From positions 68,410,676 to 68,474,675 of the forward strand of contig CM049316.1 of assembly GCA_026874595.1 (NCBI GenBank): a stretch of 64,000 nt of DNA, given 5' to 3'. The position numbers and the translations under genes were made by a program. The notes under the pieces were generated by a model that worked only from the letters and a program-made list of their open reading frames with translations, was not told the origin of the DNA and ran no database searches. Shown here in pieces: positions 13,287 to 48,009 of this stretch; positions within the stretch are counted from its first letter, which is position 1, and the number at the start of each line of letters is the position of its first letter. This DNA comes from Sipunculus nudus (taxonomy: Eukaryota; Annelida; Sipuncula; Golfingiida; Sipunculidae).

Positions 13287-13530
13287 AAGTATGGATGCTG
13301 AGTTTCTGAGGGATGAGACGGTGCCTGATGGGACCCACCTGCTGCCAGGAACTCGATTCACGAAGCGCTGGGTCATGAAGAACATAGGACATGCTACCTG
13401 GGGTGACAGCACTAAACTCCAAATGATATGGGGCAACATGATGCCCCAACAGCCGCAGCACCAGTCCCTTACCTTGAACCGGGAGAGGAAGGCCTCATAT
13501 CTGTGGAGCACGTTGCTCCAGATGAACCTG
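13287..13530 (+). CDS. NBR1: NBR1-type (FW) Ig-like domain, first exon, with a one-base frame break
   Basis: The exon encodes the start of the NBR1 central domain: DAEFLRDETVPDGTHLLPG, RWVMKNIGHATWGDSTKLQM, then in another frame PYLEPGEEGLISVEHVAPDE. Tryptophans and the PG-x-x-F-x-K-x-W pattern are those of the four-tryptophan FW domain. The frame breaks near 13440. The exon is 244 nt, one base short of the length its flanking phases demand, and the run GCCCC at 13440-13444 is where one more C would restore it. Either a homopolymer sequencing error or a real frameshift is possible. The donor CCTG|GTAAGA is in phase 1 and matches 14080. In NBR1 family receptors this domain binds cargo or partner proteins. 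Confidence 0.85.
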
Positions 13531-14079
13531 GTAAGAAGAACCATTTTTGCTTTGTTTCAGATCTGTTGCAGCCATCCATTTGCATGGCACAAACACAAAA
13601 ATGTTTGACAACATTATGTGTGTTACATATACAGAAAAACACATTTTATAATTTTAAAAGAAAAGTGTTTAATTTTAAGGTACCTTGGCAGATGTAATAG
13701 ATGTCCTGTGTTGTCATCAACTGAGCATCATGGCACATCCACGGGTCACTCCCTTATTGTCAACTTTCAGTCTTTCTTAGCCCATTGTTCCTTTTTGCTA
13801 AATGTTAGCACTCTCATCTCATTATTTACTAAATGTTGGCCTAGTTAAATTTTCAAATCAAATTGTGAACAGAAAATCCAAATATCTTTTTGCAATATGG
13901 ATTTTTTTAGGAGTAATAGGCCTTTCATAGCAAACACTGCTTTTGGAAATGTTAAGCCATTTAAATCCTGAAAAAAAAATAAACTTTGAAAAACTAAACT
14001 TTAAAAAATGATTGATTTGAGTAGTTGAAGGCATAAAAGCAGATAACAAAGTAGACTGAGATTGCTTTGTATCCCTCAG
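13531..14079 (+). other. Intron between the FW exons
   Basis: About 550 bases with a good donor (GTAAGA) and acceptor (TTTGTATCCCTCAG). No other feature is seen. Confidence 0.7.
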
Positions 14080-14255
14080 GACACTACCAGAGCCACTGGC
14101 GTCTGTATGATGGTAATGAACGCTTCGGGCACCGCGTATGGTGCACCATTGTGGTGGACGAGCAGGAGGTGCTGGAGCCTTCGGGTGAACAGCTCTCCCT
14201 GGTGGAACAGCTTGATGTAGCACCAGCAGCCACCCAGCAGCAGCCAGATATAAAG
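14080..14255 (+). CDS. NBR1: NBR1-type (FW) Ig-like domain, second exon
   Basis: This exon completes the FW domain: GHYQSHWRLYDGNERFGHRV then WCTIVVDEQEVLEPSGEQ. The Y-x-S-x-W-R-L ... FG-x-x-V-W-C-x-I-x-V pattern is the C-terminal half of the NBR1 family Ig-like domain. It continues into a Q/A-rich tail (VAPAATQQQPDIK). It starts with two bases completing the phase 1 codon of 13530 and ends in phase 0 (AAG|GTACAC). Confidence 0.9.
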
Positions 14256-14959
14256 GTACACCAGTTCACTGTTTGTCATTCCCAAGTATCAATGGTTTGT
14301 GCTTTAAACTGTTTCCTTTTTGCAAGCTTCAACTTGGCGCCCATCACAAACTAAACCTTATCATGGTTTTTGGTGTACAAAATGCGACTCATGGAACTTC
14401 TTCATTTTCATTTCTTAACATTTCTAGGACACCCATAAATATGCTCAAGTCTTATTCATATGCATGAGAACTCCCTCATGAATATTCATAAATTTGTTAT
14501 CTTACCCTATCAGCAGATTGAAAATTTGTTTGTAATTAGCAGAATAACAAAGTATCCTTTAAAATAATAATATATCAGAATAATAACAATAGAATTAAGC
14601 ATATTTTAATTCATCTGACTCCCTTTTCCCAAGGGTCATCTTTTTGTGTGGTTTGTTATGGTAGGACTACATAAAACAAGACATGTAACGGCTGATGAAT
14701 GTTGGGATCACTTGACAGCTCTGTTGATATGATGATGATGCATAATATGTGTCACGATTTTGTGATTTTACCTCCTTTGAAAGTCTCCGCCGATTATGTA
14801 CTGTTAATTCAGTAATAAAATAAAGATTTTATTATCATCATTACATTGTAAATTTTAATGTCAAAGTGAAAAGTAAAATTAAAGACTAGCTTTACCTGCA
14901 CCAGATGCTAAAGTTGTGTATAGAAAGGACATAAAAGACAAATTATATATTTTACAAAG
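14256..14959 (+). other. Intron, no feature seen
   Basis: AT-rich intron between the FW exon and the linker exon at 14960. No repeat family was recognised. Confidence 0.5.
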
Positions 14960-15146
14960 ACTGAATGTTTCGATGAGAGAGACCGAGCTGATGGAGGTGC
15001 CGGTGCTGCCCCCGAACAGCTAGTAGGTAAAGCTCAAGCAACCCCGTCTGCACCAGCTGACCTGTTGTGTTTTGAGATGGTTGATGCCACAAACCGCGGT
15101 CCTCCCAAAGTGTCTCAGACAGCCACTCCAAACAACACACTACTGG
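14960..15146 (+). CDS. NBR1-like low-complexity linker exon
   Basis: The stretch is open from an acceptor TTTTACAAAG (phase 0, as required after 14255) to a donor CTGG|GTAAAA (phase 1). It encodes TECFDERDRADGGAGAAPEQ, then a proline/alanine-rich part and CFEMVDATNRGPPKVSQTAT. No domain is recognised; it resembles the disordered region after the FW domain in NBR1 proteins. The exon was found by phase and composition, without homology support. No UBA domain exon, expected at the end of a standard NBR1, was found downstream. The next phase-compatible exon seen is the CARD exon at 35116. Confidence 0.6.
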
Positions 15147-15459
15147 GTAAAATCTTTATTTGATAAATTGCCCTTAAAAATATATTCTGTTCTCATATGT
15201 TTTGTCAGCAAATGTTATCACAAATTGTGTGTCATGCAGTCTTGCTCAATAATTCACAAATTCTTGATACGCAATAAAACATACATGCATCCATCACAAT
15301 AACTGATTCTCTATAAAAATAGACACTATTGCATACACTTACATGAGGAAATTCGATTGTTGCAGACTTGCTAGACTCCTAGAGGTAATTGAATGGCATA
15401 GTTCAACATATGAGGGATTGTTACACATATAAAAGTGTGTTGATTCAGTCAATATTTAA
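15147..15459 (+). other. Start of a gene-poor 20-kb region
   Basis: No feature is seen before the tandem array. Confidence 0.4.
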
Positions 15460-16430
15460 ATAATTGGAGTGCTTTGTGCGATAGGGGTCTGAATTCCGAT
15501 GTAGCTATGTAATCTCCTCGTGCGATGGTGTATGCCTTCTAGTGTAACTTATTTAATCTCCTTTGTGCGATGGGAGTTTGAATCCAAGTGTATCAAATTC
15601 CTCCTTCGTGTGATGGGGCCTGACTTCGACTGTAGCATATTTAATCTCCTTCGTGCAATGGTGTCTGACTTCTAGTGTAGCATATTTAATCTCCCTCCTT
15701 GCGATGGGATGCAGGTTTTACTTTCGATGTAGCATATGTAATTTCTTTGTGCGATGGGGTCTGACTTCCAGTGTGTCATATTTAATCTCCTCGTGCGATG
15801 GGGTTTGACTTCCAATGTAACATATTTAATTTCCTCGTGCGGTGGGGGTCAGCTTCCAGAGAGGCATATTTAATCTCCTTCGTGCATGGGGGTCTGACTT
15901 CCAGTTTGGCATATTTAATCTCCTTCCTGCGATGGGTTCTGACTTCCGATATAGCATATTTAATTCCTTTGTGCGATGAGGTCCGACTTCCAGTGTAACA
16001 TATTTAATCTGCTCCTGCGATTGGGTTTGACTTCCAGTGTAACATATTTAATCTCCTCGTGCGATGGGGTTTGACTTCCAATGTAACATATTTAATTTCC
16101 TCGTGCGGTGGGGGTCAGCTTCCAGAGAGGCATATTTAATCTCCTTCGTGCATGGGGGTCTGACTTCCAGTTTGGCATATTTAATCTCCTTCCTGCGATG
16201 GGTTCTGACTTCCGATATAGCATATTTAATTCCTTTGTGCGATGAGGTCCGACTTCCAGTGTAACATATTTAATCTGCTCCTGCGATTGGGTTTGACTTC
16301 CAGTGTAACATATTTAATTTCCTCGTATGATGTGGTCTGACTTCCAGTGTAGCATAATTAATCTCCTTTGTGCGACGGGGTTGACTTCCAGTGTAGCGTA
16401 TTGAATCCCCTTCGTACGACTTGGTTGACC
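15460..16430. repeat. 44-bp tandem array with a perfect 266-bp duplication
   Basis: About 22 copies of a 44-bp unit (CATATTTAATCTCCTTCGTGCGATGGGGTCTGACTTCCAGTG, given here as a composite pattern of shorter pieces) run across the interval. Six consecutive units form a 266-bp block present twice without visible difference (about 15781-16046 and 16047-16312). Identical 66-codon frames at 15798 and 16064 come from that block and are not genes. Confidence 0.9.
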
Positions 16431-16439
16431 TGTGGGGTT

Positions 16440-17480
16440 GCTTTGTTAACTTGCAGAACGTTACGCTACCACAAACATTAAGGTGGTCTTTATGGCAATG
16501 CTTGACCGACTTGAATTTGCTTATATGTACATGTTCAGTGCACATAAGTTTGACAGAATAAAGAGCATTAATTAGCAACTATGTTCGCCGAGTTTCATTG
16601 GGTTAGTGCGGTATTCAAAGGAAGAATTATGAAGTGTAATATGCCTACATATATAGTCACTCTACTCATTTATAATCCCAAAATCAAATATGTGGTGATT
16701 AGCATTAGCTAAATACGATCCAAGAACCATGTTGCATGAAGCAGGTAACCTGATCACTCCAGTGTGCTTGGGCGAGACTCGTTCCTTGCACCCACCCCCC
16801 GCTTGAATAATCCGATGTCTTATAGTAATCACCCTGTCCGTCTGTCTGTTCGTCTGTAACTCTGTCTGTCCGTCCACAAATTAATTTCCGGATGATAACT
16901 CATGTTTGGATTGATAAATGGATTTCAATCTTCAAATATATATGGCCCACGACTAAAGGAATAATATTTCGGTCATAAGGCCAAAGGTCAAGGTCACAAG
17001 ACCAAGATCATTAAAAAGTTTGTGGATGCAATTAAGCAAAATCTTTCATACAACACCTTCCATTTTGCACATACAGATTACCTGACAATAGGGAAAGATC
17101 TCTTTCAATAACGGGGTCACAAGGTCAAAGGTCAAGGACACAAGGACCATTTGTCCACAAATTCATTTTTAAATTATAAATCCATTTTAGTTTGACATAT
17201 GGATTTTAAATCTGATTTATACATGGCCCACCACTAGAGCTAAAAACCCTAAGGTCAACACACCCAAACCTTTTAAAAGATTGTGGAGGCTTGGGAACAG
17301 TTTCATCTAAAATCTTTCACCTTGGGATTTTTCTGACAAGACGGTAAGAATCATATTGATTTCAACATCAAAAGTTCATAGGTTAAAGTCATAGAATCAT
17401 CCTACTGGTTTAAAAGCTTAAACAGGCTTACAATTTAATACATCTGATGTAATTATGCCTCTATTGATTTGAATGCTCCA
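16440..17480. repeat. Dispersed CTGTCCGTC / AAGGTCA repeat
   Basis: A stretch of CTGTCTGTCCGTC (about 16835-16875, plus strand) leads into GATAACTCATGTTTGG and several GGTCAAAGGTCAAGGTCACA blocks (16975-17130). Related sequence lies at 6775-6960 and 24230-24910. It is a multi-copy repeat family without a coding frame. Confidence 0.6.
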
Positions 17481-19760
17481 CTCCTACATCTTCATACACG
17501 ACTATCACTGATTCATCTTGCCTCAATGTTTAAATACTGTTTTGATAGAGTTTCCTCTGTCTCTGCACGTAATCAGGTCTTTAATTTTATATTACCAAGC
17601 ATCACTCAGTCCACACTATGAGTTTATGGACCTTTTGTTGTTCCTTCCTGACCTGTCAGTATTCATCTGGTTGATGTCAATGAAGCCTTGCATTTGCCCC
17701 CTTCCCAACAGGTATATAAAAGAGATTAAGCTGACCGAGAATGATAAGAGCTGTATATGTGTTCTCTGCTTGACATCTATCAGGTGTAAAGTCGTTTGGT
17801 TGTCTGATCATCTAGTCATCTAAACATTATTAGGGCACAAATCGTCATTATTAGACCGAGAAACTTCTGGAAATCTGTTTGGAAACCAAAAATTTGGACA
17901 AGGTGACCTATATCCTGCAAGTTACTGGGGCATAAAAAGAATTTTGAGCAGCATAGCCATCATGTTAAGGTTGCAACAAATATTTCTCATTAGATCACAC
18001 GAATATAAATGTGCCTCATCCATTTCTTACGATTTTCAACATGGAAATTTTGTACAGGATCAGAACATTATTTTTCATGTTGTGGGGTGATTTATTGCAA
18101 TATATTTGACAATATGCAAACCTGTCTGTAACTGAATATTTGAATTGAACAGTGATACTGATCATGTAAATGGAATATGCATATAAACTACTGGTAGGAC
18201 CACGTTTGGTGATTTGTTTTCTGCAGGTAAAACGATATAATCAACTATATCCCAGATTAAACAGAAAAGCATATCAACCTTATTCCCGATCTTCAATTGA
18301 TAGATAGAGCAAGGGTCTTTGTGTGCCATTCTTCTGTCCATAAATTAGCAGGCTGAAAATCATCAAATCAAAACCATTGGTTATTATCCCTGTAGGTCCT
18401 TATAAAAACCTTCTTACAACCTGAAACTAGGCCACTGTGCCCTATTTCCAAAATGTTACTTATATTTTCCTCAGCATATCATCTGTTGAAGTCCGATAGT
18501 TTTTTTAAACTGAAAGTCTTCTGAGCTATAGCGATCAGTCTTTGTCCGTCATCCGGCCAACGGGCAGGCTGTTATCAGGGCACATCTCATAACTGTTGGA
18601 TCTCGAATCATCTAACTCAATATCCACTGACCCTGAAAAATCTGTTTGAACACCTGATATTCAGGTCACTGCGACCTATAATCTCTTATAGCACCCCAGA
18701 ATAATTAAAAACTCGACACAAAATCTCTGGTATCTAAATAACTAGAGACCCAGGGGCGTAATGTTTACTCTGTAAATTACTCTGCATGATGGTGGATGAT
18801 TAAGAAATAAAAAAAATGAATGTAAAAACAATCATGGATTTCCTAGTTGACACGGCGTCGTTGCACAAATTTACAGAGTGATCGAACTAAAAATGTTACA
18901 GAAACTCTATGAACAAGACAAGGATTAATCAGAAGACAATATTCAAAGTTCTGTAAAGCGGCAATCGTAAAAAAAAAATTTACTAAAATTATACTCATTT
19001 TATTCCTATTGTTTTAAGGAATTGCTTACTTTTATATGAAAACCAAAATATTCACACTTTATGACATATGAAAATGCAGAAAAGACCATGACAGCCTGCA
19101 GAATGTGACTCAACACAGGTGGCGCCACTTTCAGGTCAAAATCAAATAGTCACATGACCAATATATCCTTGTGAAATTTGGTGCTGAAGGTGGACCATAG
19201 GAAGACACGTCTCTCTTGACATTCAGGTTGGTCCTTTAAAGATCTTCCTGGACACCTGAATTTAGGTCACTGCCGTCTATTTTCTCTGGATTATATGGCC
19301 TCTAAAGGTCCTGTTATTGCACCCAAGAATAATCTAACATTTTGTACAAAAGCTTCAGTATCTGAAAAACTAATGCATTGATTGTAATGATTCATGCCAT
19401 GCATTTTGATCATGGATGTTTCAAAATTTACTGCACTGCTGGTGTCACCTTCATTTTTTTCTAATTTTTACACATTTTTCTCTGTTGTTGAGAGCTGCAA
19501 ATGAAGCAGACTCGTCGTTAACAAAGGGAAAAAAACCCTGATCATTAGACCTAGAAGCTTCTTACTACCCATCTAGGGAGGTCATAGGCATATCCTCTGG
19601 GAATGATGAAATAAAGACACGGTGTCCTATATTCTGCACACTACGTCCCCAAAACATGATTTTGAGTAACCAGTGAGTTAGACAGGGTACAATTTGAATC
19701 TGTTGGGCCAATTATCCTTTATGCAACATCCAGGGAGGTTTGGGGCACATCGTTATTATT
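17481..19760. repeat. Gene-free stretch with diverged dispersed repeats
   Basis: Around 18525-18720 the motif GAGCTATAGCGATCAGTC with TTTGTCCGTC recurs at 24225 and 36525. GGTCACTGCGACCTATA and ACATCCAGGGAGGT blocks (18665, 19260, 19570-19740) recur in 32500-34250. The palindrome-bearing AGGTGGCGCCACTT near 19120 recurs at 32110 and 59120-59560. No exon is recognised. Confidence 0.5.
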
Positions 19761-20779
19761 ATTATTATTATTGTAATTATTATAATTATCTATATAGGTA
19801 ATAGCACTTTGGATTTTTTTTCTAGACAATGGTTCACTTGCTTCCGCTCGGATTTGACTTTCCGAATTGTGCACATAAATTTATTGTTCACTGATATTTT
19901 GCAAAACGAAAAAAAAAATCAATGTTCGACACAAAGAACAGTACCATATTTTTCTAATGACACAAAAAATATGTTTATAGACATGTCAAAACCACGTCTA
20001 ATCGGCTTACATTCTCGCAAAAAAACAAACTTCATGGTTTCCGTCCAATCCTGTTACCTCGCACTTCCGGTAAATGCGTAGAAGGGACTTTACAAAAATC
20101 TGAGAATCCGCGGAGGGCTGGTGAAAGAGCCTTCAGCAACATATGCATGTGTTTACACATAACGCATGTGTTTATTTACATGCCAAAGACTATTTTCAAC
20201 TGACTTCACTGAATAAACCGCTGATCATATTCCACAACGTCGTCTGAGCTTCAACTATTGCAAGGTGTCTTTTATAAACTTTCACTCTGCTATATGCATA
20301 TAAATTCATGGTAGAATGTTTCTTTATACAATTGTTATATCTAAGATATTTCCCAAGCAATGATGCTGTCGGACCCAGGTTGTGTATGGGGAAAGGCATT
20401 ACTTAAAAAATCGTAAACCCTGTATATGCCTCAAGTCTCTTTCCAAAACTTATTTTTGTGTGGTTTCTGGAACAGAATAATTTGCCTTTCTTTGTTAATA
20501 TTTTGTGGGAGTGGGTTTCCTGGAGAATTCTAACATTAGTAATCTTTATATCCTGTAAGTGAAAGACATGACAAAAGTTACATGCTCTAAGGCACTTAAC
20601 AATTAAAATATAAAATACAAAAGCACAACGACATAGTATTATAGTAGATAAAACATGCAATTTAAAAATTTAAAATAATGTTTGATCAATTGATTAAAAA
20701 GCAGCCTAAAGGTTAAACTGTGTTTTCCTTGGACTGGATAAACATTACGTTATTTTCTATCTTGTTAGTCTTCACACTG
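19761..20779. other. No feature beyond an ATT microsatellite
   Basis: (ATT)n occurs near 19755-19790. Open frames here show no family resemblance. Confidence 0.4.
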
Positions 20780-21830
20780 ACTGGAAAATATCACAACTTC
20801 TATTCAATCCAATCCGGACATAAAACGTGTGTCTTAAGAGCACGTTTAAAATCCTCCACCACGTTCATTTTCCTCAAGCAGTCCAGCAGTTAATTCCACG
20901 TTTTAGTTACAGCTTTCTTGAATGACCGATCACCGTATGTCTTGGTCTTGGTATAGAGAATGCACAGCTGGATGGTTTTTCTGGAGCTCTGTGATCCTCC
21001 CGGTGTTTTTACACCCAGCAGATCTTTAATGTACTGTGGTGCATCCCCATTTTTTGCTTTATTGGCATACGATAAAAACTGATATAGTATAATCCTCTCT
21101 ATTGGTAACAAGTGGAGACCTCTGAGCACAGGTTGTGTATGATCATATTTGCTTGTCCTTGTAATAACCCTTGCCGCAGTTTTCTGGATTCGCTGTAGCT
21201 TGTGTAGCAGTGTGGCCAACAGAGCCCCCCCCCCCCCCCGCCATTCTGTAGAGTAATCCCGTTACAGGGCTTGTGCCTGGAGGAGGTTGTGATTTCAGTC
21301 TTAGCGTCATTAAGTTTCAGTTTGTTTTCAAACATTCATTTTCTTACAAGTTCCAGACAGGCTTTCATATTATTAACAGATGGAACTGAACGGGACACAT
21401 TGAGCAGCTGGGTATCATTAGGATACAAATTTTCTGATGTTTGATGTGGTTGCTAAGAGGTGGTGTATAGACAGTAGAGTAACGTACGAAAGACAGATCT
21501 TTGGGGAACGCCGTACTTAAGGCGTGTTGGGTCAGACCCCTCACTGCTTATAATAACTCGCTGACTCAGATACGACTCGATCAAAGAAAGTGCTTTTTCT
21601 CTGATACCAAAGAATCTCTTCATCCTCTTGATATTAGTATCGACGCTAATAATAGGTCGATATGCTGATAGGTATCATCAGGATAGAACAAATGCTCAGT
21701 TATTGGATATTTGTATTGGTTGCTAAGTGGCGTGGTGTATAGACAGTAGAGTAACGTATGCAATAATGGGCGGTATCCCTTGGCCATCATCGTATGTTCA
21801 CCCATACTATCTCAAAATCGGCAAGAGTTA
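20780..21830 (-). mobile_element. CR1/L2-like LINE fragment with a repeated RT segment
   Basis: The reverse strand encodes the C-terminal part of a reverse transcriptase: LQRIQKTAARVITRTSKYDH, LRGLHLLPIERIILYQFL and YGDRSFKKAVTKTWN. Farther 5' are FENKLKLNDAKTE and YTTPLSNQYKY followed by a YPDDT in place of YADDT. The segment around YTxPLSN is present twice (about 21425-21480 and 21690-21760), so the element carries an internal duplication. A run of 15 C (21225-21239) interrupts the frame. It is a dead copy related to 4307-5530. Confidence 0.8.
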
Positions 21831-23520
21831 GAAAAATTATATTTAAAAAGTCAGTAATCTGAAGACTCTGTCGGATTGTGTATATTTTAGGGCCACCTGA
21901 ATCGACTTTACAGGTAAAAAGCTGGAAAAATGTTGGTCACATTATATATTTGAAATTGATGCATTGGTGGCACCACCTGCACTGACATTTATATTAGAAG
22001 GGTACCCTTCTTCCTTCCTTTAACCCATTAACTATCTAAAGAATGGCATTAGCTAACATCACCAAGTTAATGTAAAATTCAGTCACATGTCAAATATTGT
22101 TAGACTGGGGTTTTTTATGGTGCAACCTGTTTGCACATGCAGATGAAAAACCTGAATAGTCTTTAAAATTCTTCTTCTCTGAAAACATGTTATTAAATTG
22201 TTTAAGGCCAGCAATAAGGTCAATATTTCGTAATTTATAAAGGTTTAGTGCCCAAACATAATCCACTTTTTTTTTAAATCAGATAAGATATTATCTCACT
22301 TTACACGATAAATATTAAAGCTAGAGACCTATCTTTTTAATGAGTATAAATGGTATAAATAACCTTATAAAATCAAAATTTAAGTGACGCTAATTTTTTC
22401 ACTTTTTTAGCAGCACTTTTTTTTTCTTTTTTAAGCGGCAAACGTTTTATATATCCTGCTTTAATAGTCCAGTTAGAATTAGAAAGGAACATTTCACAAT
22501 TTTTGTGTTCAAAAGCCCCGCATGTGTCACAACGTTTCTGAATTAGGGAGCAATATATATACGTAGTGTACAAAGCAGATCATGATTCACTTTGTCTTAA
22601 AAAATGGGGAATTTACACAAATTTTACATAAAATATTTGTAACAATTTCTTACTCATCAATACAAACTTATCTTATCAACAAATCATGGAATATATTACC
22701 TCTTCCTCTTAGACTTTATCTCCATTTGGTATTATTTTAAATGTTTACCTTCTAGGTCAACTTCATATGAGCCCATTGATCCATGGGACCCTTGTTTTCA
22801 TGTATACTTTTCAGGAGAAATAGTTCGTGTTCGGCTTACAATTGTACTGTGTGAATGAATGTTTTTGCTGGCGATTTATCCTTAGCATTCATAGCTTGAC
22901 GGTCTGTGTGCAGAATGTGACACTCTTCAACAAGGATATTACACGGCCGGTAATCATGGGAAAAGGGTTCCGCAACGCTGGCCATCCATCAAGTTTTCAT
23001 TATTTGAACTTTGTTTGTTTTTAGTTGTTTTTTTTTTTAACATTTAGTGGTTTTCCATTTTAAGTACATCATTTATAGTGCCTACAAAAAACATTTTTCC
23101 TTACTTTGAGTGGTTTCTCAATTTCAAAACACCATTTTGTCCCTACGAAATACGTTATTTGAAATGTTCAATTTCTTTTGATTAAAGTGTCAATTGATGT
23201 ATCATATAACTACACACTGTTAGGAGATTATATAGACCTACATAGGGACGGATCCAGGAAGTTAGAAAAGGAGGGGTCTTACCTTTGACTAATGACAAAA
23301 CCAGAAAAGGTCCCAAGGTCCTTAAAGGGAGGGGGGCTTAGGGCTGCAAAAACTGGTCTGAAACCCTTATAATGAGGATGCAGCGGCTTGGAAAAAATGA
23401 GTGTGTCAGGGACCCCCTGAACCTCCTTGGATTCGCATGTGCTACTACCGAGTAATGCATTTTCCCGTTTCTGCATTTAGGAACGGCTTGCTTGCCCTAA
23501 AACATAGACTTTTTTCATCT
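21831..23520. other. Gene-free; small lysine-rich reverse frame
   Basis: At 21780-21990 there is a dispersed repeat (GTTCACCCATACTATCTC and GACTCTGTCGGATTG) shared with 36790-36930. A 66-codon reverse frame at 22373-22573 contains KRCDTCGAFEHKNC and a lysine-rich tail (KKEKKSAAKKVKK). It has no recognised family and no supporting splice context, so it is not called a gene. Confidence 0.4.
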
Positions 23521-24180
23521 TTTATAACATCCTTAGAGCTGTCTATCATTATACATATTATATTATAACAATAATAGTATATGTAACCAGTCTAAGATCT
23601 TTGAAAATCTAAATGCCCTCGCGTCCCAATTCGGTTTGTAAATGTAAACTTCATCACTAACCAGATCTTCAAGGTAAATATACCAATGCATGAATTTCTT
23701 GCCACGAGCACAGTGCCACAAAATAAATGTATGAGTGTTAGTCCATATCTTATTGAAACAGTATCTTTTTTTTAACAAACATTTGTTCAGATAATACATG
23801 TACAATACACGTATGCACAAAACATTACAAAGTCAATTCAAGTATCTTAATAATATATAATAAACACACACACATATATACACATTGACACCCTAATCTA
23901 AATTACAAATTAGAATTTAAAGACACCCCATTTTTCTTGTTAATCCAAAAGGCTATTTTTACCAATATCCTTGGGTAAAAGGACATTCGAAAACAAATGT
24001 GTCAATGGTTCTCTTCCTTCTTCACAGAAATATTGTCTCCTTGTCTTTGACACCAATTAAAAAAAATTATTTGTGGTTAATATTCTGTGTATCAAATTAA
24101 ACTGAAATATCCTTAAGTTGTAGAATTAGTAAGCCTCACTATATGCATAAAAGAGTTAAAGATATTTTTTTACAGTCATA
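23521..24180 (-). mobile_element. L1/Tx1-like LINE, 3' end fragment
   Basis: In broken reverse frames the segment gives a C-terminal LINE signature: QFNLIHRILTTNNF, a zinc-knuckle-like region, FECPFTQGYW, then ILWHCARGKKFMH and KPNWDARAFRF. The order matches the C terminus of the better-preserved element at 59963-62730. It may be the 3' end of the LINE at 26350-29600, separated from it by 24181-26349. Confidence 0.65.
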
Positions 24181-35115: not shown

Positions 35116-35493
35116 ACCAATTACTGCTTATACAGAAAGATATCCTGAATAATAAGAGGGAAGAGATTATGGATAAAATGAACAGACCTATGTATTTAGC
35201 GGAAGAACTCTTGAAAAGGAAAGTACTATCTGACAGTGATTTGGAGTCATTAAAGTTAATATGGGATAATGACCAAAAGAAAAGGATGTTGCTGAATTTC
35301 TTAGCAGACAAAGACTTGGAATCGTTTGAAGTTTTTATGGATATTACATCCAAAGATTATATACTTTTGCACGAATATTTGAATAATGAGGTTAGGAAAA
35401 GAATAGCCAGAGAAGCAGCACCAGCTGTTAGTGCAACACCAACATATGGTTCTGACCATGACCGAGACACAGTGCAAACACGTTCTGCACAAG
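35116..35493 (+). CDS. CARD domain exon
   Basis: A 378-nt exon (two-base start, phase 1 end CAA G|GTAAGT) with a strong acceptor. Residues about 1-90 read as a six-helix caspase recruitment domain: LLIQKDILNNKREEIMDKM (helix 1), YLAEELLKRKVLSDSDLESL (helices 2-3), DQKKRMLLNFLADKDLESFE (helices 4-5) and YILLHEYL (helix 6). The LLxxxVLSDSDLE and the F-x-x-F/L core spacing are typical. A polar tail rich in A, T and D follows. CARDs make homotypic contacts in apoptosis and innate-immune signalling. The exon needs an upstream exon ending in phase 1. The one at 14960-15146 fits, as would an unseen first exon. Downstream it joins 43400 in frame. Confidence 0.85.
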
Positions 35494-37329: not shown

Positions 37330-38260
37330 TTATAAATAAAGGAAATCGACCATATTCACCTAAACCGTTACATTAAGAGTATTTGATCCAACAGTTAAAA
37401 CAAACCTACAAAATTTATATTGTACCCTCTCTTTTGATTCAACTGTGGTGTATACCCACACTTCACAAGCATATAATAAATTTAGTACCACTAAGTTATA
37501 AAATGAATAATAAAGTTCTTTCACATTGAAATGACGACATCTTTGTCCAGGTATTGGTCGAGGATAGTTCACTTGTAAAGAAAATGCCAGGTATTTATAA
37601 TATGAAACTACATTTCATATTATAAATATCTCATATTATATCTCCTGAATTCCACTTCTCTGTTTTACGAAGAATGCCCCCCCCCCCCTGCTTAAAACGA
37701 TAATTTTAGTCTTATCTTGCGCCAAGGAAACACTTAAATATTCTGTGGTTCCTCTGAATGTAAGAATGCATGACTTCATTTAAGTATACATTGATTTAAA
37801 CATCTTTAATATCTTTCCATTTATTCCTTTTTCGACTAACACTTACCATATAATATAATGTTGAACACCGTCAAATGCTTTGGAAAAATCAATAAATATA
37901 CAGTAAAACGTCCCTCTGCGTTTTATTAAATATCTGTGTATTAAACCTGTAAATCAAAAGCTTGTCTGTGGTACAATATCCTTTGTGATATCCTGCCTGT
38001 ATTTATGTTAATATCTAATGTTCATTTACATACTCTAATAGACAATTATTTAAAATCTTAGAAGATATTTTCTCCGTAACACTTAGTAAGGAGATACCAC
38101 TATAATTTCACGGATCATTAGTTTGATCATTTTTATATAAGGGATAGATTTTAGCTTTACCATAGCTTTATTATAGCTTATTGTAAAATTGTAATCGTGG
38201 ATTGCTATTTCTGTGGGTTTTGTTATTTTGAAAGTTATTACACAATGTGCATAATTTCTT
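37330..38260 (-). mobile_element. Non-LTR retrotransposon fragment
   Basis: The reverse strand yields IDFSKAFDGVQH (about 37895-37860), a following segment of the RQGD-to-C-terminal region, and the frame 37360-37572 with ELYYSFYNLVVLNLLYACEV and VQYKFCRFVLTVGSNT. These are reverse transcriptase finger and C-terminal features. A 12-C run (37677-37688) and several stops break it. The clade is not determined; it differs from the other LINEs here. Confidence 0.7.
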
Positions 38261-39041
38261 TGATTGTTTAGTTATGATTGATCTTTTGTATGACTTTCAA
38301 GATATGCGGATATTTTTGTTTATAATTGTTTATAACTTATAATTTAAACTAGCTTTGTTGTAACTGTCATACGACAGTCACGGATCTCCACCTATCCCCC
38401 CGTCCAAACACCCACCTACCCACCCCCTGCTCCCAACTCATCAACTTTTATTTGATCCGTCTCTAAGTCTAATAATGTTGGAGGAACTATAGTCCTTTAA
38501 AACAAAGAAAATTTGTTCGGTCCTTCTTGTTTTCACAGATGAGTTGAAAGACCTTACATCATGTTTTCATAATTTGCATATTAATAAAAACTAAAAAAGA
38601 TATCGGTAAAAAAACTTGCCTATGCACTTCTAATATTATATATGGCACCTGTCTGTAGAAGTTTAAATTATCTAGATTATGTCGTTTATCCGGAATGGTA
38701 GCTGAGTCTCAAACTAAAAAGTGCTGAGCCATTCCTATGGTTCTTTATGAGAGAATTCAATGCAGAACCCCAGAAATGTGGGGAGTCAGATATTATCATA
38801 GGTTTTTAGACCATTGGTGCCTCTCATAGATAAAAAAGAAAATCTAATTGGAAATATCAAAAAGTCGCACTTTTTTATCCCTTTGATCTTGAAAAAGCGG
38901 TCAAGGTCACTGAAACTGGGTCAAATTATTTTGACCATAGTTAGGTATTACCTAAGTAAGTATGAATAAAATGTGGCAGACTAATATGAATTATAATAAT
39001 GTCAAATGCAAATCTCTTCACCTGCTTATAGGCGGAGATAA
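38261..39041 (+). other. Intron, no feature seen
   Basis: AT-rich sequence between the LINE fragment and the hAT element. Confidence 0.4.
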
Positions 39042-39049
39042 TAATAGTT

Positions 39050-40690
39050 CAGACATGGGTCGAATACAGGATAAATGTATTCGAATACGAATACGAATAC
39101 AGAACGGGTACACGAATACGAATACAATTACAAATACTCAAAACAGAAATGTATTCGAATACGAATACAAATACAAATTCAAATTTATTCATGTTTATCA
39201 ATATGACTACAATTTACTGTTTATTGAAACAAAAAGAAACTATCAGGTATCATTTTTTACATACAATTAACTGCAATCATCATATTTTTACACTTGCAAA
39301 ATGTATTTTTGTCCAAAATTCAAAATATTAATGCAAGTGTTTGAGGAGATTCGATGTGATTTTTCCAGTAGTTGAAATATGTGCAGTACAGTACTTGCAT
39401 TTGGCTTTATAAGATCCATTGGTACAATCTAGCAGGTCAAAATGATCACGATTTACTGACATCTTGTTAGGTGATGCCATACTGAACACGGTTCTTCAAT
39501 CTCTGATAGACAGCAGATCACAATGTGCATCAGAAACTGAAATGATATCTCTAACACACGTCAGAGAATATATAGGGGAAGTCAGGTAATGACATTGATA
39601 TGTGGATTAGCTACCTGAACTGCTTAGACTTACTTAATTAATAGCACTGACAGCCAGAGTTTGTCACAGTACAAGTCTAAACTGCTTGTATTGTTAATGC
39701 AATAATTCCTCAGATTGGCTCAGACGTTAGGGTGAACAGTAACCATACTTCAAGCTTCAGTAGATCTGTTTTATGTGTTTTCTTGCATTGTCTTGTACAT
39801 ACACATTACTGAATAAACACATTAATATTTAGTTAATATGAATCAAGTAAAAAATGTCAAAATCTGTGAATAAGATTATTAGTGTGTATGTTTTAGGTGG
39901 GCCCAAATCATTCACTATTGAAATAATAGTACATTTTTCCAAATGGATAAAGGACAAAAGGTAAACAACATTAATGTATAGTGCTTGTACTTATGAAAAG
40001 TATCCATTAATGTGAATACTTCTGCAATGACTTGACCTCACCATGAACTTTACGTGACCTTGATAGCATATTCATTTATTGAATAATCATAGCATCACTG
40101 TTCGGTGCAGCCAATCAGGTCGCCGTTATTACTGTAAACCGTCAGAACAGAACACGTGTAGTCTGTACCAGTACCCTAGTCGGCATGTTTTCTGGGAGAT
40201 TTTTTATGCAAAGGAGACAGTATACAAGGTTCTAGGCCAAAGGTTGGAGGAGCCATTCCTCCGAATATTCAGTGAATGACAATGTCATACCTGGCTTGTA
40301 ATTCGTATGAGACAATTAATCCAAAATATAGCAAAACAGTTCATAATGACTGCAATATAATCAGCACTTGAGAACAGAGATATAGCGATTCCAGATGATG
40401 ACGTCATCAATGCGACATCATACGTCATCAACCTTTGTGACGTCACTATTGTAATGAAAAGAGCTCATGAAACCATTGGCATGGAAAGCCTTCTGTGAAG
40501 GAGCATTTTGGGGTCTCATTATCATAATTAGGTGAAAAGGGCTGCGCAATGGGCTGTGGTGGTGAGGTCAATTTGAATACGAATACAAATACTGTTGTAC
40601 TATTTACAAATGTATTCGACTACGAATATTCAAAATACCTGTATTCAAATACAATGAATCCGAATACTAAATACGAATACCCTATGTCTG
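39050..40690 (-). mobile_element. hAT DNA transposon, internally deleted
   Basis: A 1,641-bp element bounded by a perfect 8-bp target duplication TAATAGTT (39042-39049 and 40691-40698). The ends are inverted: CAGACATGGGT at the left, and the complement CAGACATAGGGT at the right. Subterminal GAATAC/GTATTC repeats follow at both ends (39070-39180, 40575-40680). Eight-base duplications and CAG-starting ends define the hAT superfamily. A BED-finger remnant is at 39328-39480 on the reverse strand; the transposase catalytic part is gone, so the copy is non-autonomous. Confidence 0.9.
39328..39480 (-). pseudogene. BED zinc finger remnant of a hAT transposase
   Basis: A 50-codon reverse frame starts MASPNKMSVNRDHFDLLDC and continues KAKCKYCTAHIS, then TSNLLKHLH and stop. 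The K-x-K-C-x-x-C ... T-S-N-L-x-K-H-x-H pattern is the BED finger found at the N terminus of hAT transposases. Here it is cut off after the second histidine. It lies inside the element defined by target duplications, which supports the call. Confidence 0.8.
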
Positions 40691-40698
40691 TAATAGTT

Positions 40699-43399
40699 AG
40701 ACAAGGTATTCTTTGAATATTATTGCAAGTCAGGAATGTGTAGACTAAATTTATCAAAGGCAAATTTACTTACATTTATATTTAATTGTTTTGCAAGCTG
40801 AATGGTTATTTTGGTACTTCGAGATAGCATTCACGTACATTGGTTTAGTACTTATTCAGCGTGAGTGGCTTCTGTGAAATTTAACCTGATTCAGTTCATG
40901 TTTTTTTAGTATAAATTTAACATAAAGAGAAACGATTTCACAACATCATGCATTATTGTTTAATTGTAAAATAAAATAAAAATAATTTTTAATTCTATCA
41001 ACGGGATAGCTTTAACTACTGCTTAGTTCAAATCCCATCTATGATAGTGTACTGGGAACTCGTCTGTGGAACTCGAAGATGTCTGATAAAAAATTAACAT
41101 GGTGATCTAAGTCCGATATTTCCCAGAGACATCATTTAGAATGATTTATATTTTTCACAGAGATGTGAAACTCTCCAGGGGGAATAACTTATCAATCGCA
41201 GGGCTCTTGTTTTCCAAGAATCCTTAGAGTTTAGCGCTCGGGCGCTGTCTCCCTCCTTTTTCAGAAGTTTGAAAAGAAATATCATCATGTCGAATGATGC
41301 AGTTGATTTATTTGCATTCCGCCCGGAAAACAATGTCTGGGCATTTATGGAATATCAGGCATCGCATTAGCTGTACCAAATCTTAATTGTAAAAAAAAAT
41401 TTGAAAAAGCCAGTTACCAATTAATTTCCAATGATAACGAAATAACACTGGTCATATGTTAAAGATCGTGTAAATATAAATGGTAAACTGAAGTAACTGA
41501 CATATTATAAATTGTATATTGCAAACAAGGTAATTAAAACTGCTTGTACTGCACTTATTTCTTCCTTCGGTTAAGTGTGATATCTGGTGACAATTTAACA
41601 GAGGACATGTTCGATATCTGTAACTGAACTTTATAAGCTATATAAATAATGTTTCTTGTTTTATCATATTATATTAAATAAACTAGTACAAACCTGAATT
41701 AGTAAAAAGTTTAGTTAGTACAAAGATCATTAGACAAATAATTATAAATACATATATAAGATACATTATTCCACATTTCACGATGAACATTTTTATAAAA
41801 TTTGTGAAGGAATAGGAAATTTCAGATAATCAACTAAATATAAAGAATGTAATTCAACAATATAAGCAACAAGAGAGTCTACCATTTATAAGACCATAAC
41901 AAGAAAAAACTAATTAAAACAATAAAATAAACAGATTTGTACATGTCTATTCTTTAATTTCTAAATTTCCCTGTATTCTGGACAAATGAATAATACAATC
42001 AAAAATTCACATGCAAAGGTCCAAGGCATATCATTTAAACATTTGCTGCTCCATTGAAAAGCTTAACCCATGAGCTGGGAATTTGACTAGTGCCACTTGT
42101 TCAGAACTCTTGTGGATACTTTAAAGTGCTGACAAGTCACTGTCGTAGATCACAAAAATATAGAAGCACAGTTTGCAGGTAATATTAAGGCAGTTTGCTA
42201 CATGTAGCTAGTTTCACTTTAGTTAGAAACCAAATAGCATTAAATGCATCAATTTTTCTTTCTTGCTATACATGATTCAATGATAACACTGATGTATATA
42301 GGAAGTATAACTAAGTCTCATTTGTATGTGTTCGAGTTATAGTCGGCAAATATATTCACATCAGTTGTGAAACATTTGTTTAGAGGTTAATATCCGAACT
42401 TTATATTATATTGTTATTTTTTTATTGACGATTATCCAAGGAACGTGAACAAACACATTACAAGCCTTTGGTAGCACGTCACAGTGTGACTTGTTGAGGC
42501 ACTGTTGTATCCTTGCCGCATGATAATCTCTATAATTACTATGTATTTACTGTATTTTTAGTTATTGTTTTACTAATTATATATTTGAGTCCTTACTTGA
42601 CTAAAATTAAATTTTGTGTACCATGCATCGTTTTAATATATAGAAATATGCGCTTCTGTTATAAGGATAAACTATGTATAAATGATAACATAAAGGAAAC
42701 TACCTTAGATTTTTACAGCTAGAATGCTGTGGTTTGAATCCGACGTAGAACATTTGGAAAATGTCCCCTTCTAGAATATTTGGTACATGACCAGCTTTAA
42801 TCAAGTAAATATTTTTACAGGTACTGCATTGGCACGGAACTGTGGTATTATGTTCTTTTGAATTCTTAACCCCATTTTTGAATATACGTTTTCTGATATG
42901 TCACAAACCAGATACTCTGCGTCGAAGCACGCTGTTAAATCATGTACATTGGATTAATAAGACAACGGGGAAGATTTGAATTGTACAAATGAATGATTGT
43001 CCATTCTTTTGAATAAGACAATACATATATTTCCTTTCTTACTGTTCCATTATCAAGAGAACAAACACTGATATACTCTATACATAAAGTTGTATGCAAA
43101 TGATTGGATGCAGCCCAGTGATAAAGGTGGTGGCCTTGCAGCTGAATGTTTCCTGCTTGCACTCTCCCTTGCAACATTCTCGAGAGAATCTTAGAAATTC
43201 AGTTTGATATATTAAGCAGGTTATGACCTGTGGGTCTTTTGTAGCCCCCTTCCAAAGGAAACATGCAATCCAGAGGATGGATAAGATACTGTTTTAGCAG
43301 TATTGATTAGAATATCATCAGTCGGCAGAGTGTCTCAATAGACCAATATAAATGGGCCTGCGTGATGTTTAAAATTCAGAAATATGTCACTTGTTTCAG
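40699..43399 (+). other. Intron before the CAP-Gly exon
   Basis: No exon was recognised over 2.7 kb of AT-rich sequence. The short frames (for example 42513-42722) have no family resemblance. Confidence 0.45.
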
Positions 43400-43683
43400 A
43401 CGGAACCCGTCCTTTTTATGAAGGGCGGAGGGTGAGGCAGGTTGATAAATCCAACAACCCACAGAGAGATACAAAAGCTGTCCCTACTAAAAGCGTGGCT
43501 GCAAAAAAGAAGTTACACTCCGAGAAAACTATGCCTGTGGCTCTCGATCCTAGCACACTTGATACTGATTTGTGCATTGGATCTGCTGTCGAAATTAATC
43601 TGCAAAGAAATCCTGTGTTTGGGGTCATACGATGGATTGGTCATTACGGTAATCCACAAAAAACTATTGTTGGAATAGAAATG
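43400..43683 (+). CDS. CYLD-type CAP-Gly domain, first exon (gene A)
   Basis: A 284-nt exon with acceptor CTTGTTTCAG (two-base start) and donor GAA ATG|GTAAGT (phase 0). The first ~60 codons are a basic linker (TKSVAAKKKLHSEKT). Then comes the CAP-Gly first half LCIGSAVEINLQRNPVFGVI and RWIGHYGNPQKTIVGIEM. The F-G-V-I-R-W-I-G signature is that of the CAP-Gly domains in the deubiquitinase CYLD, which bind proline-rich and ubiquitin-pathway partners such as NEMO. No USP catalytic domain follows, so the protein is not CYLD itself. The splice phase continues the CARD exon in frame. The homologous exon of gene B is 52663-52910. Confidence 0.85.
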
Positions 43684-45322
43684 GTAAGTGATTTTCCAGA
43701 TAGACAATACAGCGAGAGCCCATGTTGTTATGGTGGGCGACTTCAGCGCCGCTCAGAGTGAGATTCTGATCATAACTTGTTATAGACAAAACCTTTTCAC
43801 AGTACATCGCACAATTCCCTATGAATTACTGAATAATTAATAACTTATACGTAATCAAATTTTCTTTAATTCAAGGTAGGAATCGCAGCTATGTATTGCA
43901 TTTAACAGTCTCTATATCTCTGTTTGAGAATTTCTACGAGAAATACGGAACCAGAAGAAGTGACTGCTTCTATTCTAGAAAAGAGTGTGATTCAAGCATT
44001 ATTAGCGGATCTCCTGCGATAGACGGTGATATATATGATTTCTCCAGAGTGCGTAGCATATACTTCTAATGAGATGGAATATTTGTGAAACTAAATAAGA
44101 TTGATCAAAGGTAAAGAAGCACAAACTATAGCAAAAATGTCTATTGGAACTTCATGGTGTCATTTGCAGGAACTTTCTCGTATGACACAAGTTCAGAAAC
44201 AGAGCAGTTCAAAAGCTGACGTGAAAAAAGCTTCACATGTAGTTTGTCAGCCCATTCTTGTTCCCCTTGAACATACAGTACTACTGCTGAACACTTAAAG
44301 GGACATAATCAAGAGTAATACTATATCTATTCTCTCATACTATGAGTTTAGATTTGCTATATACAGAAATTCTCAGCAAAACCATCCCAGCACACAATCA
44401 AAGTAACTCGCAGACGGCTGTTTAATATCGTGTTATGTGCCGGTAAACACAGTCCTCGTGTGTCTGTTTAACCTAACAAGACCGGAGATCCAATCGTGAG
44501 ACACATCACGCGGTGCTTCAGCAAGCGGGAACATGTATTAAATTTTTGGGCCAAGTCAGTCAGGGCATATCCTGATAGACACGTGTAGTGGCTCCGCGAT
44601 TCACACGGTCCCACGCGTTGTGTTTATGTTGACACCTGTGATCGCGCTGGGTGCACTGTTTTAACACTCGTTTACAGGACTAAGCAAACGGTTTCCAGGC
44701 AATATTTTGGCAGGTACAGATTTATTTTAAAGAGAAGTTATTGTACGTGTTAATTCAGAATGCTGTATAGGTGATTGGGCCCTTTAAAGTGTTCATCTTG
44801 AAACAGGCCTATTCTTTTGTGTAAAATCTTGTCAGTTTGTTTTCCCTTTGAAATTCTGCCGCGTTGTTATCAAATGCTATCATGATACCTCTGCAGAAAA
44901 AGCCTAACCTTGATACGCGTGTGTCAAAGAAATATAAAACTGTGATGGATTCAAATACATTCTCAACCTTAGCTGAATGTATTTTTTCTATCAGTGTGAA
45001 GACAACAATACACACAATGAATTCTAATTCAGATTTGAACTGGGTAGGGGAACATCGGCAGCTATACACATTTGCTTATATATGCAGCTTTGATGCTCAA
45101 AGAGCTTTAGGTGGTATCCGCCATCCAGTTTTATTCGCTTGACCGTGGAATAATCCTTCGGATTGTAGTTATTTGTCTGCTTTATTATTTTTCCAAGCAC
45201 ATCAAAGTTTAATTATTTGAGTAAATAGGATAGCATAGTGACTGTAGGGGGTATCAAATTTATCATCTCTTCATGTACAATTCTAACTGCTCTGCAGGAA
45301 AAGCTTATTCATATTTGAACAG
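43684..45322 (+). other. Intron in gene A
   Basis: A 1.6-kb intron between the two CAP-Gly exons. A 44400-44700 stretch is somewhat GC-richer, without recognised function. Confidence 0.5.
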
Positions 45323-45458
45323 GAAGAAGGAAATGCTGCTGGTACAGATGGGACATACATGAGATTTAGACTCTTCATTTGTCGACCGGGGAAGAATATA
45401 TTCACATACCTGAAAAACTGCAGACCTGACAGACGATTGAAAATCCAGGCCACTAACA
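45323..45458 (+). CDS. CYLD-type CAP-Gly domain, second exon (gene A)
   Basis: The exon begins in phase 0 after TTTGAACAG and encodes EEGNAAGTDGTYMRFRLFIC then RPGKNIFTYLKNCRPDRRL. It ends ACTAACA|GTAAGA in phase 1. G-T-D-G-T-x(4)-R-L-F-x-C takes the place of the classic GKNDG-x-x-x-G-x-R-Y-F motif, as in CYLD, and FxYLKNCRPDRR closely follows the CYLD pattern. It completes the domain begun at 43400. The homologue in gene B is 53295-53433. Confidence 0.85.
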
Positions 45459-46632
45459 GTAAGATCTGATACATGGAGCATTACCAATGTTACCTCATAT
45501 AATACTTTAATAATTGCGTTTTTACTTTATGTCATATATGCTGATATGTAGGTCTATGTCCGTCGTTCGTTCGTGCTTTAAAAGGATCCAAATTTCCACT
45601 GTAGGGGGTAAAAGTTAAAATGTGACAGAGATAGTATGATAGAATATCTATTGAAACCCCGCGTTTGGTACGAGAACTTCATTCCATATTTGGGGGATCA
45701 TACCACATGAAATAACCTGAAACACATATTTCTTATTTTTGCTGAGAAGCAAAGAGCTTGCGTCACACGACAAGACTAAAATAATATGTCGAATTTTACA
45801 AATATCCAAATAATCCAACAACATGATAAGGGAAATTTCTAAACCAGTTGTTCTAAAACGAAAATCCAGAAAGGAGTTAACCATCAGGAGGTACATGATT
45901 ATATATATCTTGGTATATGTTTATTTCAAACAATCAAGTATTTATGACACAAAATCAAGTAGTTTCAGTTAAGTAAACAGTACGATCTTAAGGTTATTAT
46001 AATAAAGGCACTGTGCAATAATATGATACCATCATCAATCTCATTTAACAAAAATAATTTAGGTCCTACTAAGATGATGCAAGTTGGCTATTTTGTTTTG
46101 GTCTACAGATTGCATTATCTTTTATGTATAATGTCACTTTGTACGTCTTGACATTATATCGAGGGCCAAGCCTTGTTTGCTTTGATGTTTTCTATATTTC
46201 CTTTACATGCGTTGTTCCCAATTTGGATCAATTCTGTAAAACCCTGGAAACTTTCTTAACTGTTGAAGTCTTGTGCCCAATTAAAGTCCATTTCACTGCA
46301 AGAAAATCACAAATTATTCTGCTAAAAATTAATTATTATGAAAGACATTAATTTTAGAAAAGAGCACAGATCCACAACCTCAACATTTGATAAATATATA
46401 ACAACAGGAGTCAATGTAGGCGAAATAAGCTTTAAGAAAAATATATACATCCTCTGTTTAAACCACTCTCTCGATAAGAAATTATTCTTTTCTGTGGATA
46501 TTTACTATAAGACTTAAATAGATAGTCTAAGAGGTCTACATTTATCTGTATCCGCTTAATGGCCATTGAATGGACATCCTTATAGAAATCAATAAAAATG
46601 AGGTATAAGTACATGTGCAAAAATTATTTCAG
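45459..46632 (+). other. Intron in gene A, no feature seen
   Basis: AT-rich intron of 1.2 kb without recognised repeats or exons. Confidence 0.5.
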
Positions 46633-46918
46633 AGACCTTGCACTTTCATGTGACGTGTGGAAATGAGAAACTACTTGTTGATGCGGAGGCGAGCATGTTC
46701 TCCGTTTGCTCTGCGATTCGTCAAACCTTCGTAATCCCTGATAGGGATGGATTGACTATTCAATACTGGCACCACGAAGAAGGGTTTGAAGATTGGGTGC
46801 AACTGAGGGAGGAATCATTCAGGCTTCTAAGTGAGACTGTGCGTAACAGACTTAATGTGATCGTCAACCGGAGGGATCCGGATCCCGAGGGAGAGAGCAT
46901 AAACAGGCAGTTAGCCAG
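46633..46918 (+). CDS. Beta-grasp (PB1/ubiquitin-like) domain exon (gene A)
   Basis: The exon follows TTATTTCAG with a two-base start and ends GCC AG|GTGAGT in phase 2. It encodes LHFHVTCGNEKLLVDAEASM, then FSVCSAIRQTF, LTIQYWHHEEGFEDWVQLRE and NRLNVIVNRR. Two strands, a helix, an aromatic strand with D-W-V, and a final hydrophobic strand suggest a beta-grasp fold of the PB1/ubiquitin-like type. It is not a confident match to a named family. The paralogue at 53968-54256 conserves F-H-x-T-x-G, F-E-D-W-V-x-L and L-N-V-x-V, showing selection on the fold. Confidence 0.75.
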
Positions 46919-47326
46919 GTGAGTGTTGTATTTCTCAAATCCGGTGTCAACATGTTTAATGCATGAGTCATTTCAAGACTTTAAATTCAACGCACAATGG
47001 ATCTGTAAGCTAAACCGCTACTGTTTCAATGCAAAAGAAATAACACTTAACATAATCTATCTTAGTTTTAAAGAGTAGTATGTTTAAAGAAAAATAAATT
47101 TTAAAAAAGTCTTAGAAATCCAATGATATGTCGTATTCACCAGTACCTAATCATTTTCGTTGGGTATATATCTTAGTCAATACTAGCAATGCATTTTCGT
47201 AACATAAAAGCTCTAATGAACTTGCGCTATGGCACGATATACGAATATATGATATATACGATATAACAATCTTGCATTATGCATGAAACCGACTCTTGAA
47301 CATAGTTCGTACCTCTTTACTTTCAG

Positions 47327-47364
47327 GGCATTAGAGGACGCCTATCATCTTTATCTTGTATCAG
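47327..47364 (+). CDS. 38-nt exon (gene A)
   Basis: A tiny exon flanked by TTACTTTCAG and G|GTAATG, encoding RALEDAYHLYLVS across its junctions. Its length (38 nt), phases and sequence match the exon 54617-54654 of gene B, which is good evidence that both are real. The donor is followed 9 bases later by a long (CT)n(TA)n microsatellite. Confidence 0.75.
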
Positions 47365-47370
47365 GTAATG

Positions 47371-47372
<2 letters not shown>

Positions 47373-47462
<90 letters not shown>
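47373..47462. repeat. (CT)n(TA)n microsatellite
   Basis: About 19 CT repeats followed by about 25 TA repeats, immediately downstream of the 38-nt exon. Confidence 0.98.
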
Positions 47463-47467
<5 letters not shown>

Positions 47468-47589
47468 CAGGAAAGACTAGTGTATAGAGTGCATTCGCCA
47501 CTGTGTGATACATATTTGATCAGATTTTGATATGTGTATTTATTGGATATAAACAATGTACTGCAAAATTGTTTTTTTTTTTGTCACTA

Positions 47590-47778
47590 TCACAGTGTAA
47601 ATACCCTGAAAGCACAAAAGTAATCGTTAAAGTAATTCCAATTACTTTAAAATGTATTTGTAATTGTAATCGATTACTTTTTTTGAAAACACAAAAGTAA
47701 TTGTAATTGTAATCGATTATTTTTAAAAGTATTTGTATTTGTAATCGATTATTTTAAAAGAGTTTGGACCCAACCCTG
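47590..47778. mobile_element. hAT-like terminal fragment
   Basis: Self-complementary sequence rich in GTAATCGATTAC ends in GGACCCAACCCTG, the complement of the CAGGGTTGGGTCC type of hAT terminus. No matching left end or target duplication was found, so it is probably a solo or truncated end. Confidence 0.5.
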
Positions 47779-47977
47779 ATTACTACCTTATTAGGTATCT
47801 TGTGATATAAAATTTATTTATTAATAATCCTCATTTCTATAAGCATGTAAAATGTGAACCATAAACATATCCAAAATTAATACATGAAAGAATTTCCATA
47901 GACTTAAGTATCTTAATCTTTCTTTCGGAAATAAAATAATGGCATGGGGATTACAAGCAATGTTTTATTTCTTTCAG

Positions 47978-48009
47978 ACGAATCCTTGTTTGACACGGGC
48001 CACTGTTAA
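47978..48009 (+). CDS. Terminal exon (gene A)
   Basis: After TTTATTTCTTTCAG the exon starts with two bases fitting the phase 1 end at 47364 and encodes DESLFDTGHC then TAA. Gene B ends in the comparable DDYLF and stop at 54920-54936, which supports this as the end of gene A. From the CARD exon to this stop the six exons add up to 383 codons plus stop in one frame. Confidence 0.65.

Follow-up and report, generated by a model that had tools for sequence, protein, structure and literature searches.

Adaptors of innate immunity built on a CARD, such as CARD9, BCL10 and MAVS, join this domain to coiled-coil, MAGUK or transmembrane parts. The third CAP-Gly domain of the tumour suppressor CYLD (CAP-Gly3) is described as binding ubiquitin via Leu475, Val487, an Arg, Glu507 and Phe545 (PMC8511506), and as binding NEMO through its other face (PMC8511506, PMC10320722). 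We analysed a stretch of 64,000 nucleotides of the Sipunculus nudus genome (1.43 Gb, 153 contigs), hereafter the window, which spans positions 68410676-68474675 of the plus strand of contig C11. A preliminary description had proposed that a single gene here joins an NBR1-type FW domain, a CARD, a CYLD-type CAP-Gly and a beta-grasp domain. We find that the exons are real, but most likely split over two neighbouring units rather than belonging to one giant fusion gene. Very probably, these units are two head-to-tail genes, a shortened duplicate of the autophagy gene NBR1 followed by one member of a clustered family of adaptors, with a CARD, a single CAP-Gly3-type domain and a short third domain but no deubiquitinase. 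The evidence, drawn from sequence, consists of homology, exon order and recurrence within the genome. We refer to the downstream unit (window positions 35116-48009) as gene A, to a neighbouring relative (52164-54936) as gene B, and to other CARD loci on C11 as C, D, E, F and G.

From the CARD exon onwards, the proposed chain was borne out: AG acceptors and GT donors border the exons of gene A, and a single open frame runs through to the TAA at 48007-48009. The CYLD-type nature of its CAP-Gly is also supported, with 34.6 bits against Pfam CAP_GLY (the cut-offs used were CAP_GLY 26.5, CARD 23.9, N_BRCA1_IG, the FW model, 28, and ZZ 21.4 bits) and with CYLD CAP-Gly3 structures as the nearest Protein Data Bank (PDB) entries (1ixd, 7owc and 7owd; E 6e-14 to 1e-13, 6.1e-14 for 1ixd). 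The likeness includes a GTDGT-like motif in place of the classical CAP-Gly motif, GKNDG, and extends to part of the ubiquitin-binding surface. Gene A differs from CYLD in having one CAP-Gly rather than three, in reaching its stop without a ubiquitin-specific protease (USP) catalytic domain, and in having a CARD in front. It resembles the CARD adaptors of innate immunity in the Pfam CARD of its family, and has a CAP-Gly and a third domain where those proteins carry their other parts. We file gene A as a variant of the CARD adaptor, neither CYLD, given its one CAP-Gly and lack of USP, nor NBR1.

The claim that CARD, CAP-Gly and third domain belong to one gene gains support from paralogous loci of this genome, where the same order recurs. 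Searching with the gene A CARD exon returned four other places at E up to 10, namely C, D and E on C11 and one on C2. CARD exon borders are in phase 1 on both sides in all five exons read (A, C, D, E and F). A same-strand CAP-Gly lies behind the CARD at 7.9 kb in A, at about 15 kb in C (its second half at 22.9 kb), at about 7 kb in D (60% identical to that of gene A) and at about 1.3 kb in E (second half adjoining), and locus F holds CARD, CAP-Gly and third domain inside 6.6 kb. In gene A, the phase-1 AG of the CAP-Gly acceptor also has the best pyrimidine tract.

The gene A CAP-Gly exon matches 17 places in the genome, of which 14 are on C11 (nine at 68.29-69.36 Mb, five at 29.76-29.90 Mb), one is on C17 and two are on C13, one of these carrying stops. 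We compared 12 CARD places in two C11 clusters with the 14 C11 CAP-Gly places, setting aside those on C13 and C17 and a transposon-like CARD pair (69128876/69132192); the CARD counts are lower bounds, as 150 of 650 candidates were scored. Six of the 12 CARDs are followed within 20 kb by a CAP-Gly of the same strand (A, C, D, E, F and G, all within 16 kb), and two are preceded by one. Redrawing the CARD places inside the clusters, which were delimited after the places had been seen, gave a mean of 1.7 pairs versus the 6 observed (P 0.0016). Additionally, the third domain lies downstream of the CAP-Gly at 5 of the 14 places and upstream at one.

CARD-bearing sequences of another kind were also observed. 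About 50 or more open frames of 230 amino acids with a CARD are scattered over many contigs, with equal or nearly equal scores. Most are paired with an opposite-strand frame of 275 amino acids about 3.4 kb away, and some with a further frame of 422 amino acids (examples are C5:42523563-42531457 and C11:69128876-69132437). This looks like a mobile element carrying CARD genes.

Several observations weigh against two separate genes, the downstream one a CARD–CAP-Gly–third-domain adaptor. The gene A CARD itself scores 22.8 bits (E 9.4e-5), slightly below the Pfam cut-off, no first exon of gene A was found upstream of the CARD exon, and the gene is predicted from genomic sequence. Half of the 12 CARD places lack a downstream CAP-Gly, and 8 of the 17 CAP-Gly places have, among the matches found, neither a CARD before nor a third domain after them within 20 kb. 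No third domain turned up behind three of the CARDs, in 35 kb starting from C, at 1.6-18 kb past D and at 1.5-10 kb past E. At the CAP-Gly acceptors of C, D, E and F, phase-1 AGs occur alongside AGs in other phases: in E the AG with the best tract is in phase 1, in F the right acceptor cannot be told, and in D the phase-1 AGs have weak tracts while a better acceptor runs into a stop. Finally, the upstream NBR1 duplicate has been kept under selection (ratio of non-synonymous to synonymous divergence, dN/dS, 0.18).

An alternative arrangement would place the CARD exon in another gene and give gene A its own unseen first exon beyond 35.5 kb, much as in gene B. Gene B begins with its own ATG exon and has no CARD, and no CARD was found within 20 kb in front of 11 of the 17 CAP-Gly places. 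The recurrence of CARD then CAP-Gly at A, C, D, E, F and G, and the phase-1 donor that ends each of the five CARD exons read, make this arrangement improbable. In the explanation that we favour, the CARD–CAP-Gly gene has an unseen first exon upstream of 35116. Open stretches from an ATG to a phase-1 donor in 15449-35115 number 32 with 27 donors under a loose donor rule and one under a strict rule, and none stands out.

Gene B, with one CAP-Gly, is a CARD-less sister of gene A. The two are 41% identical over 217 aligned positions and have five intron phases (1, 0, 1, 2, 1) in common from the CAP-Gly exon onward. They differ at 121 of 203 third codon positions (0.60) and at 147 of 406 first and second positions (0.36; p 7e-8), an excess expected of two coding genes under selection. 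A decayed, stop-containing copy resembling the third-domain and following exons of gene B lies at C11:68313615 (L044).

Sequence searches of Pfam and the PDB gave nothing significant for the third domain, and thus the name beta-grasp, given to it in the preliminary description, is unproven. A genome search with it returned 12 places, six of them strong and all six on C11, and a genome search with the PB1 model does not list it. BMI-1 entries 5fr6 and 2na1, of the RAWUL ubiquitin-like fold, gave PDB profile E values of 0.34 and 0.6, which are neither significant nor the best of the list, and no relation to BMI-1 is established. Among viral contigs, 63 pattern matches to the third domain were seen, none of which was confirmed. 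Distant relatives occur near the start of other open frames (L042:1456-2097 and L040:1393-1779), one of which has a long Ser/Thr/Pro tail. This module seems to be used outside the CARD–CAP-Gly family too.

The upstream unit of the window is a copy of an NBR1 gene on contig C16, whose corresponding exons are 79-95% identical in amino acids and whose FW exon is open. Genome-wide, the FW model has four matches, which are C16:33559374, two exons on C14 in a gene that we take to be ILRUN-like, and the window. In the window, both FW exons score above the Pfam cut-off, and the one-base defect suspected in the first (13287-13530) proved to be a frame shift in the assembly, between the two parts of the domain. 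The ZZ half-exons, at 19.7 and 17.3 bits, each fall below the ZZ cut-off when taken alone, and are 87-93% identical to the C16 halves. DNA collinearity with C16 extends from window position 351, introns included, at 74-85% identity, and stops at 15448, inside an intron and 302 bases past the donor at 15146; matches to C16 beyond this point are scattered or multi-place and repeat-like (for example, 24571-26246). The copy resembles NBR1 in its FW exons, its probable ZZ and coiled-coil exons and its introns, and differs in having two ZZ units, which arose by an internal tandem duplication, and in its lack of later exons.

In the C16 gene, the following exon is attached in phase 1, and a stretch resembling an LC3-interacting region (LIR) lies in an exon further downstream. 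Genome searches with these two exons gave one match each, on C16, and neither was found in 134 kb around the window, bar one opposite-strand match at E 0.03. Among 106 open stretches of at least 40 amino acids in 15147-35115, Pfam searches for a UBA domain or other NBR1 3' exons gave only chance-level matches, including one to UBA_MELK (E 0.0022, placed by a local sequence search probably at 34956-35114) that we judge to be chance. The UBA of the C16 gene was likewise not found, and the PB1 model matches two genome places, neither near the C16 gene nor near the window, so that it misses even the full gene.

Two further features of the ZZ-coding sequence were noted. A minisatellite at 9729-10688 (38 bases in 25 copies) is built of the splice acceptor and first codons of the ZZ exon, with most copies readable as RNCEDFDLC or nearly so, and a comparable array exists on C16. 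A further match to the ZZ N-half sits outside the window, about 3.2 kb ahead of its first position.

Comparison of the window copy with C16 across 294 codons gives dS 0.278 and dN 0.050; by our estimate, a copy neutral since duplication would show a dN of about 0.14. In counts, 33.5 non-synonymous differences were seen versus about 90 expected, estimated from dS/2, if one copy were neutral. Thus, the shifted FW frame is either a recent change or an assembly error, and the copy is either a gene shortened to ZZ-ZZ-coil-FW or one that broke recently. An old neutral pseudogene as the whole story is weakened by the same ratio. A dead pseudogene, for which the frame shift and the missing 3' half speak, is a possible though less favoured reading that the count of differences opposes; recent death would still fit, and this reading is compatible with two separate units. 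Reading through past 15146 adds five codons before a stop at 15161-15163, and an AATAAA follows at 15273; this motif occurs here at 1.3 per kb, so it is a hint and nothing firmer. The 3' end of the NBR1 copy probably lies in the first, retained part of the intron that follows 15146.

These results bear directly on the proposed link from 15146 to 35116, which is not supported: the donor ends an NBR1 exon, and the exon that should follow it was found only on C16. Of the combined ZZ-FW-CARD-CAP-Gly chain, the CARD–CAP-Gly–third-domain half is retained, and the NBR1 half most likely does not belong to that gene. A fusion gene would require that the NBR1 copy, having lost its 3' half, splices from its phase-1 donor to the CARD exon 20 kb downstream. 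Strand and phases allow this, the copy remained under purifying selection after duplication without its own next exons, and the search for a first exon of gene A identified none. Against this, matching phase has a one-in-three chance, and as this phase-1 donor serves in the C16 gene to join the exon that follows there, agreement with the phase of the CARD exon does not require a fusion. Additionally, the FW model matches only C16, C14 and the window, so no FW exon was found at other CARD–CAP-Gly loci, the assembly shows a shifted frame in the FW exon of the window, and an AATAAA lies about 110 bases past the read-through stop. We consider a fusion highly improbable, and keep to two separate units. 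Base composition is unequal between the parts, which is not decisive.

Coordinates of the features discussed (window positions unless C11 is given)
Feature	Position	Strand	Basis or remark
First ZZ C-half exon (matched stretch)	5737..5922	+	97% identical to second ZZ C-half; collinear with C16
Exon of coiled-coil start and ZZ N-half	6326..6523	+	Pfam ZZ 19.7 bits; matches two separate C16 places
Second ZZ C-half exon	10664..10849	+	Pfam, C16 match
Coiled-coil exon, coil by homology	11350..11520	+	Homologous to C16
FW exon 1, frame-shifted in assembly	13287..13530	+	N_BRCA1_IG 46.7 bits; C16 counterpart open
FW exon 2	14080..14255	+	N_BRCA1_IG 29.9 bits; 95% identical to C16, dN/dS 0.08
Last NBR1-like exon, phase-1 donor	14960..15146	+	85% identical to C16 over 52 amino acids
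AATAAA	15273..15278	+	About 110 bases past read-through stop; absent at aligned C16 place
Gene A CARD exon	35116..35493	+	Phase 1 both sides; Pfam CARD
Gene A CAP-Gly exon, N part	43400..43683	+	Pfam CAP_GLY, PDB match
Gene A CAP-Gly exon, C part	45323..45458	+	Splice borders, PDB match
Gene A third-domain exon (earlier label 'beta-grasp')	46633..46918	+	Paralogue comparison
Gene A exon	47327..47364	+	Splice borders, open frame
Gene A last exon with stop	47978..48009	+	TAA at 48007-48009
Gene B first coding exon with ATG	52164..52218	+	Own ATG; no CARD
Gene B CAP-Gly exon, N part	52663..52910	+	Paralogy to gene A, genome search
Gene B CAP-Gly exon, C part	53295..53433	+	Paralogy to gene A
Gene B third-domain exon	53968..54256	+	Paralogy to gene A
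Gene B exon	54617..54654	+	Paralogy to gene A
Gene B last exon with stop	54920..54936	+	Paralogy to gene A
CARD C	C11:68675638		Pfam CARD 26.4 bits, above cut-off 23.9
CARD D	C11:68854883		Pfam CARD 28.6 bits, above cut-off 23.9
CARD E	C11:68287443		Pfam CARD 19.0 bits, below cut-off 23.9
Locus F	C11: CARD 69211826, CAP-Gly 69207597, third domain 69205471	-	CARD 33.5 bits, above cut-off
Pair G	C11: 29906317 and 29904218		Coordinates alone

Elsewhere in the window, open frames resembling LINE (long interspersed nuclear element) reverse transcriptase, judged by eye, lie at 59992-62290 on the plus strand and at 26373-27186 and 4705-5390 on the minus strand.

The ubiquitin contacts of CYLD CAP-Gly3 are partly conserved in this family. 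We compared genes A to F, of which D was seen in its first half; by our own count the contacting Arg is residue 489, versus 488 in the paper. Equivalents of Val487 and the following Arg are kept in all six genes, that of Glu507 in A, E and F (3 of the 5 seen) and that of Phe545 in C and E (2 of 5). The Leu475 site reads Ala, Ile, Met, Leu, Leu and Lys in A to F, and the Ala of A and Lys of F at this key position count against ubiquitin binding. By these residues, ubiquitin binding looks most plausible for D and E, weaker for A and unlikely for F.

The simplest reading of gene A, whose CAP-Gly follows a CARD and precedes no USP, is an adaptor that would carry a module docking on ubiquitin or NEMO into CARD assemblies. 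Its CARD may assemble with other CARD proteins, such as caspase, BCL10-like or MAVS-like partners, and its CAP-Gly may dock onto a NEMO-like protein or onto chains of ubiquitin. In that case the adaptor would connect CARD assemblies with ubiquitin or NF-kB complexes, as a scaffold or as a brake, and CARD-less sisters such as gene B would modulate them. We tentatively suggest, while holding it rather unlikely, that a locally expanded CARD family reads ubiquitin via CYLD-type CAP-Gly domains that lack the deubiquitinase, such that chains directly seed or restrain CARD assemblies.

No report of a CARD with a CYLD-type CAP-Gly was found among the titles listed in searches of open-licence papers. 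Passages of PMC9334734 treat CARD and mention neither CAP-Gly nor CYLD. A ubiquitin-to-CARD adaptor design was not found described in these searches, which points weakly to its absence from print.

The NBR1 duplicate under selection is a separate, small curiosity, as an FW gene without the autophagy-docking exon. If our reading of the adaptor is true, CAP-Gly3-like modules would have been freed from their enzyme, joined to CARDs and multiplied in clusters. This would show an invertebrate rewiring of ubiquitin-controlled immune signalling.

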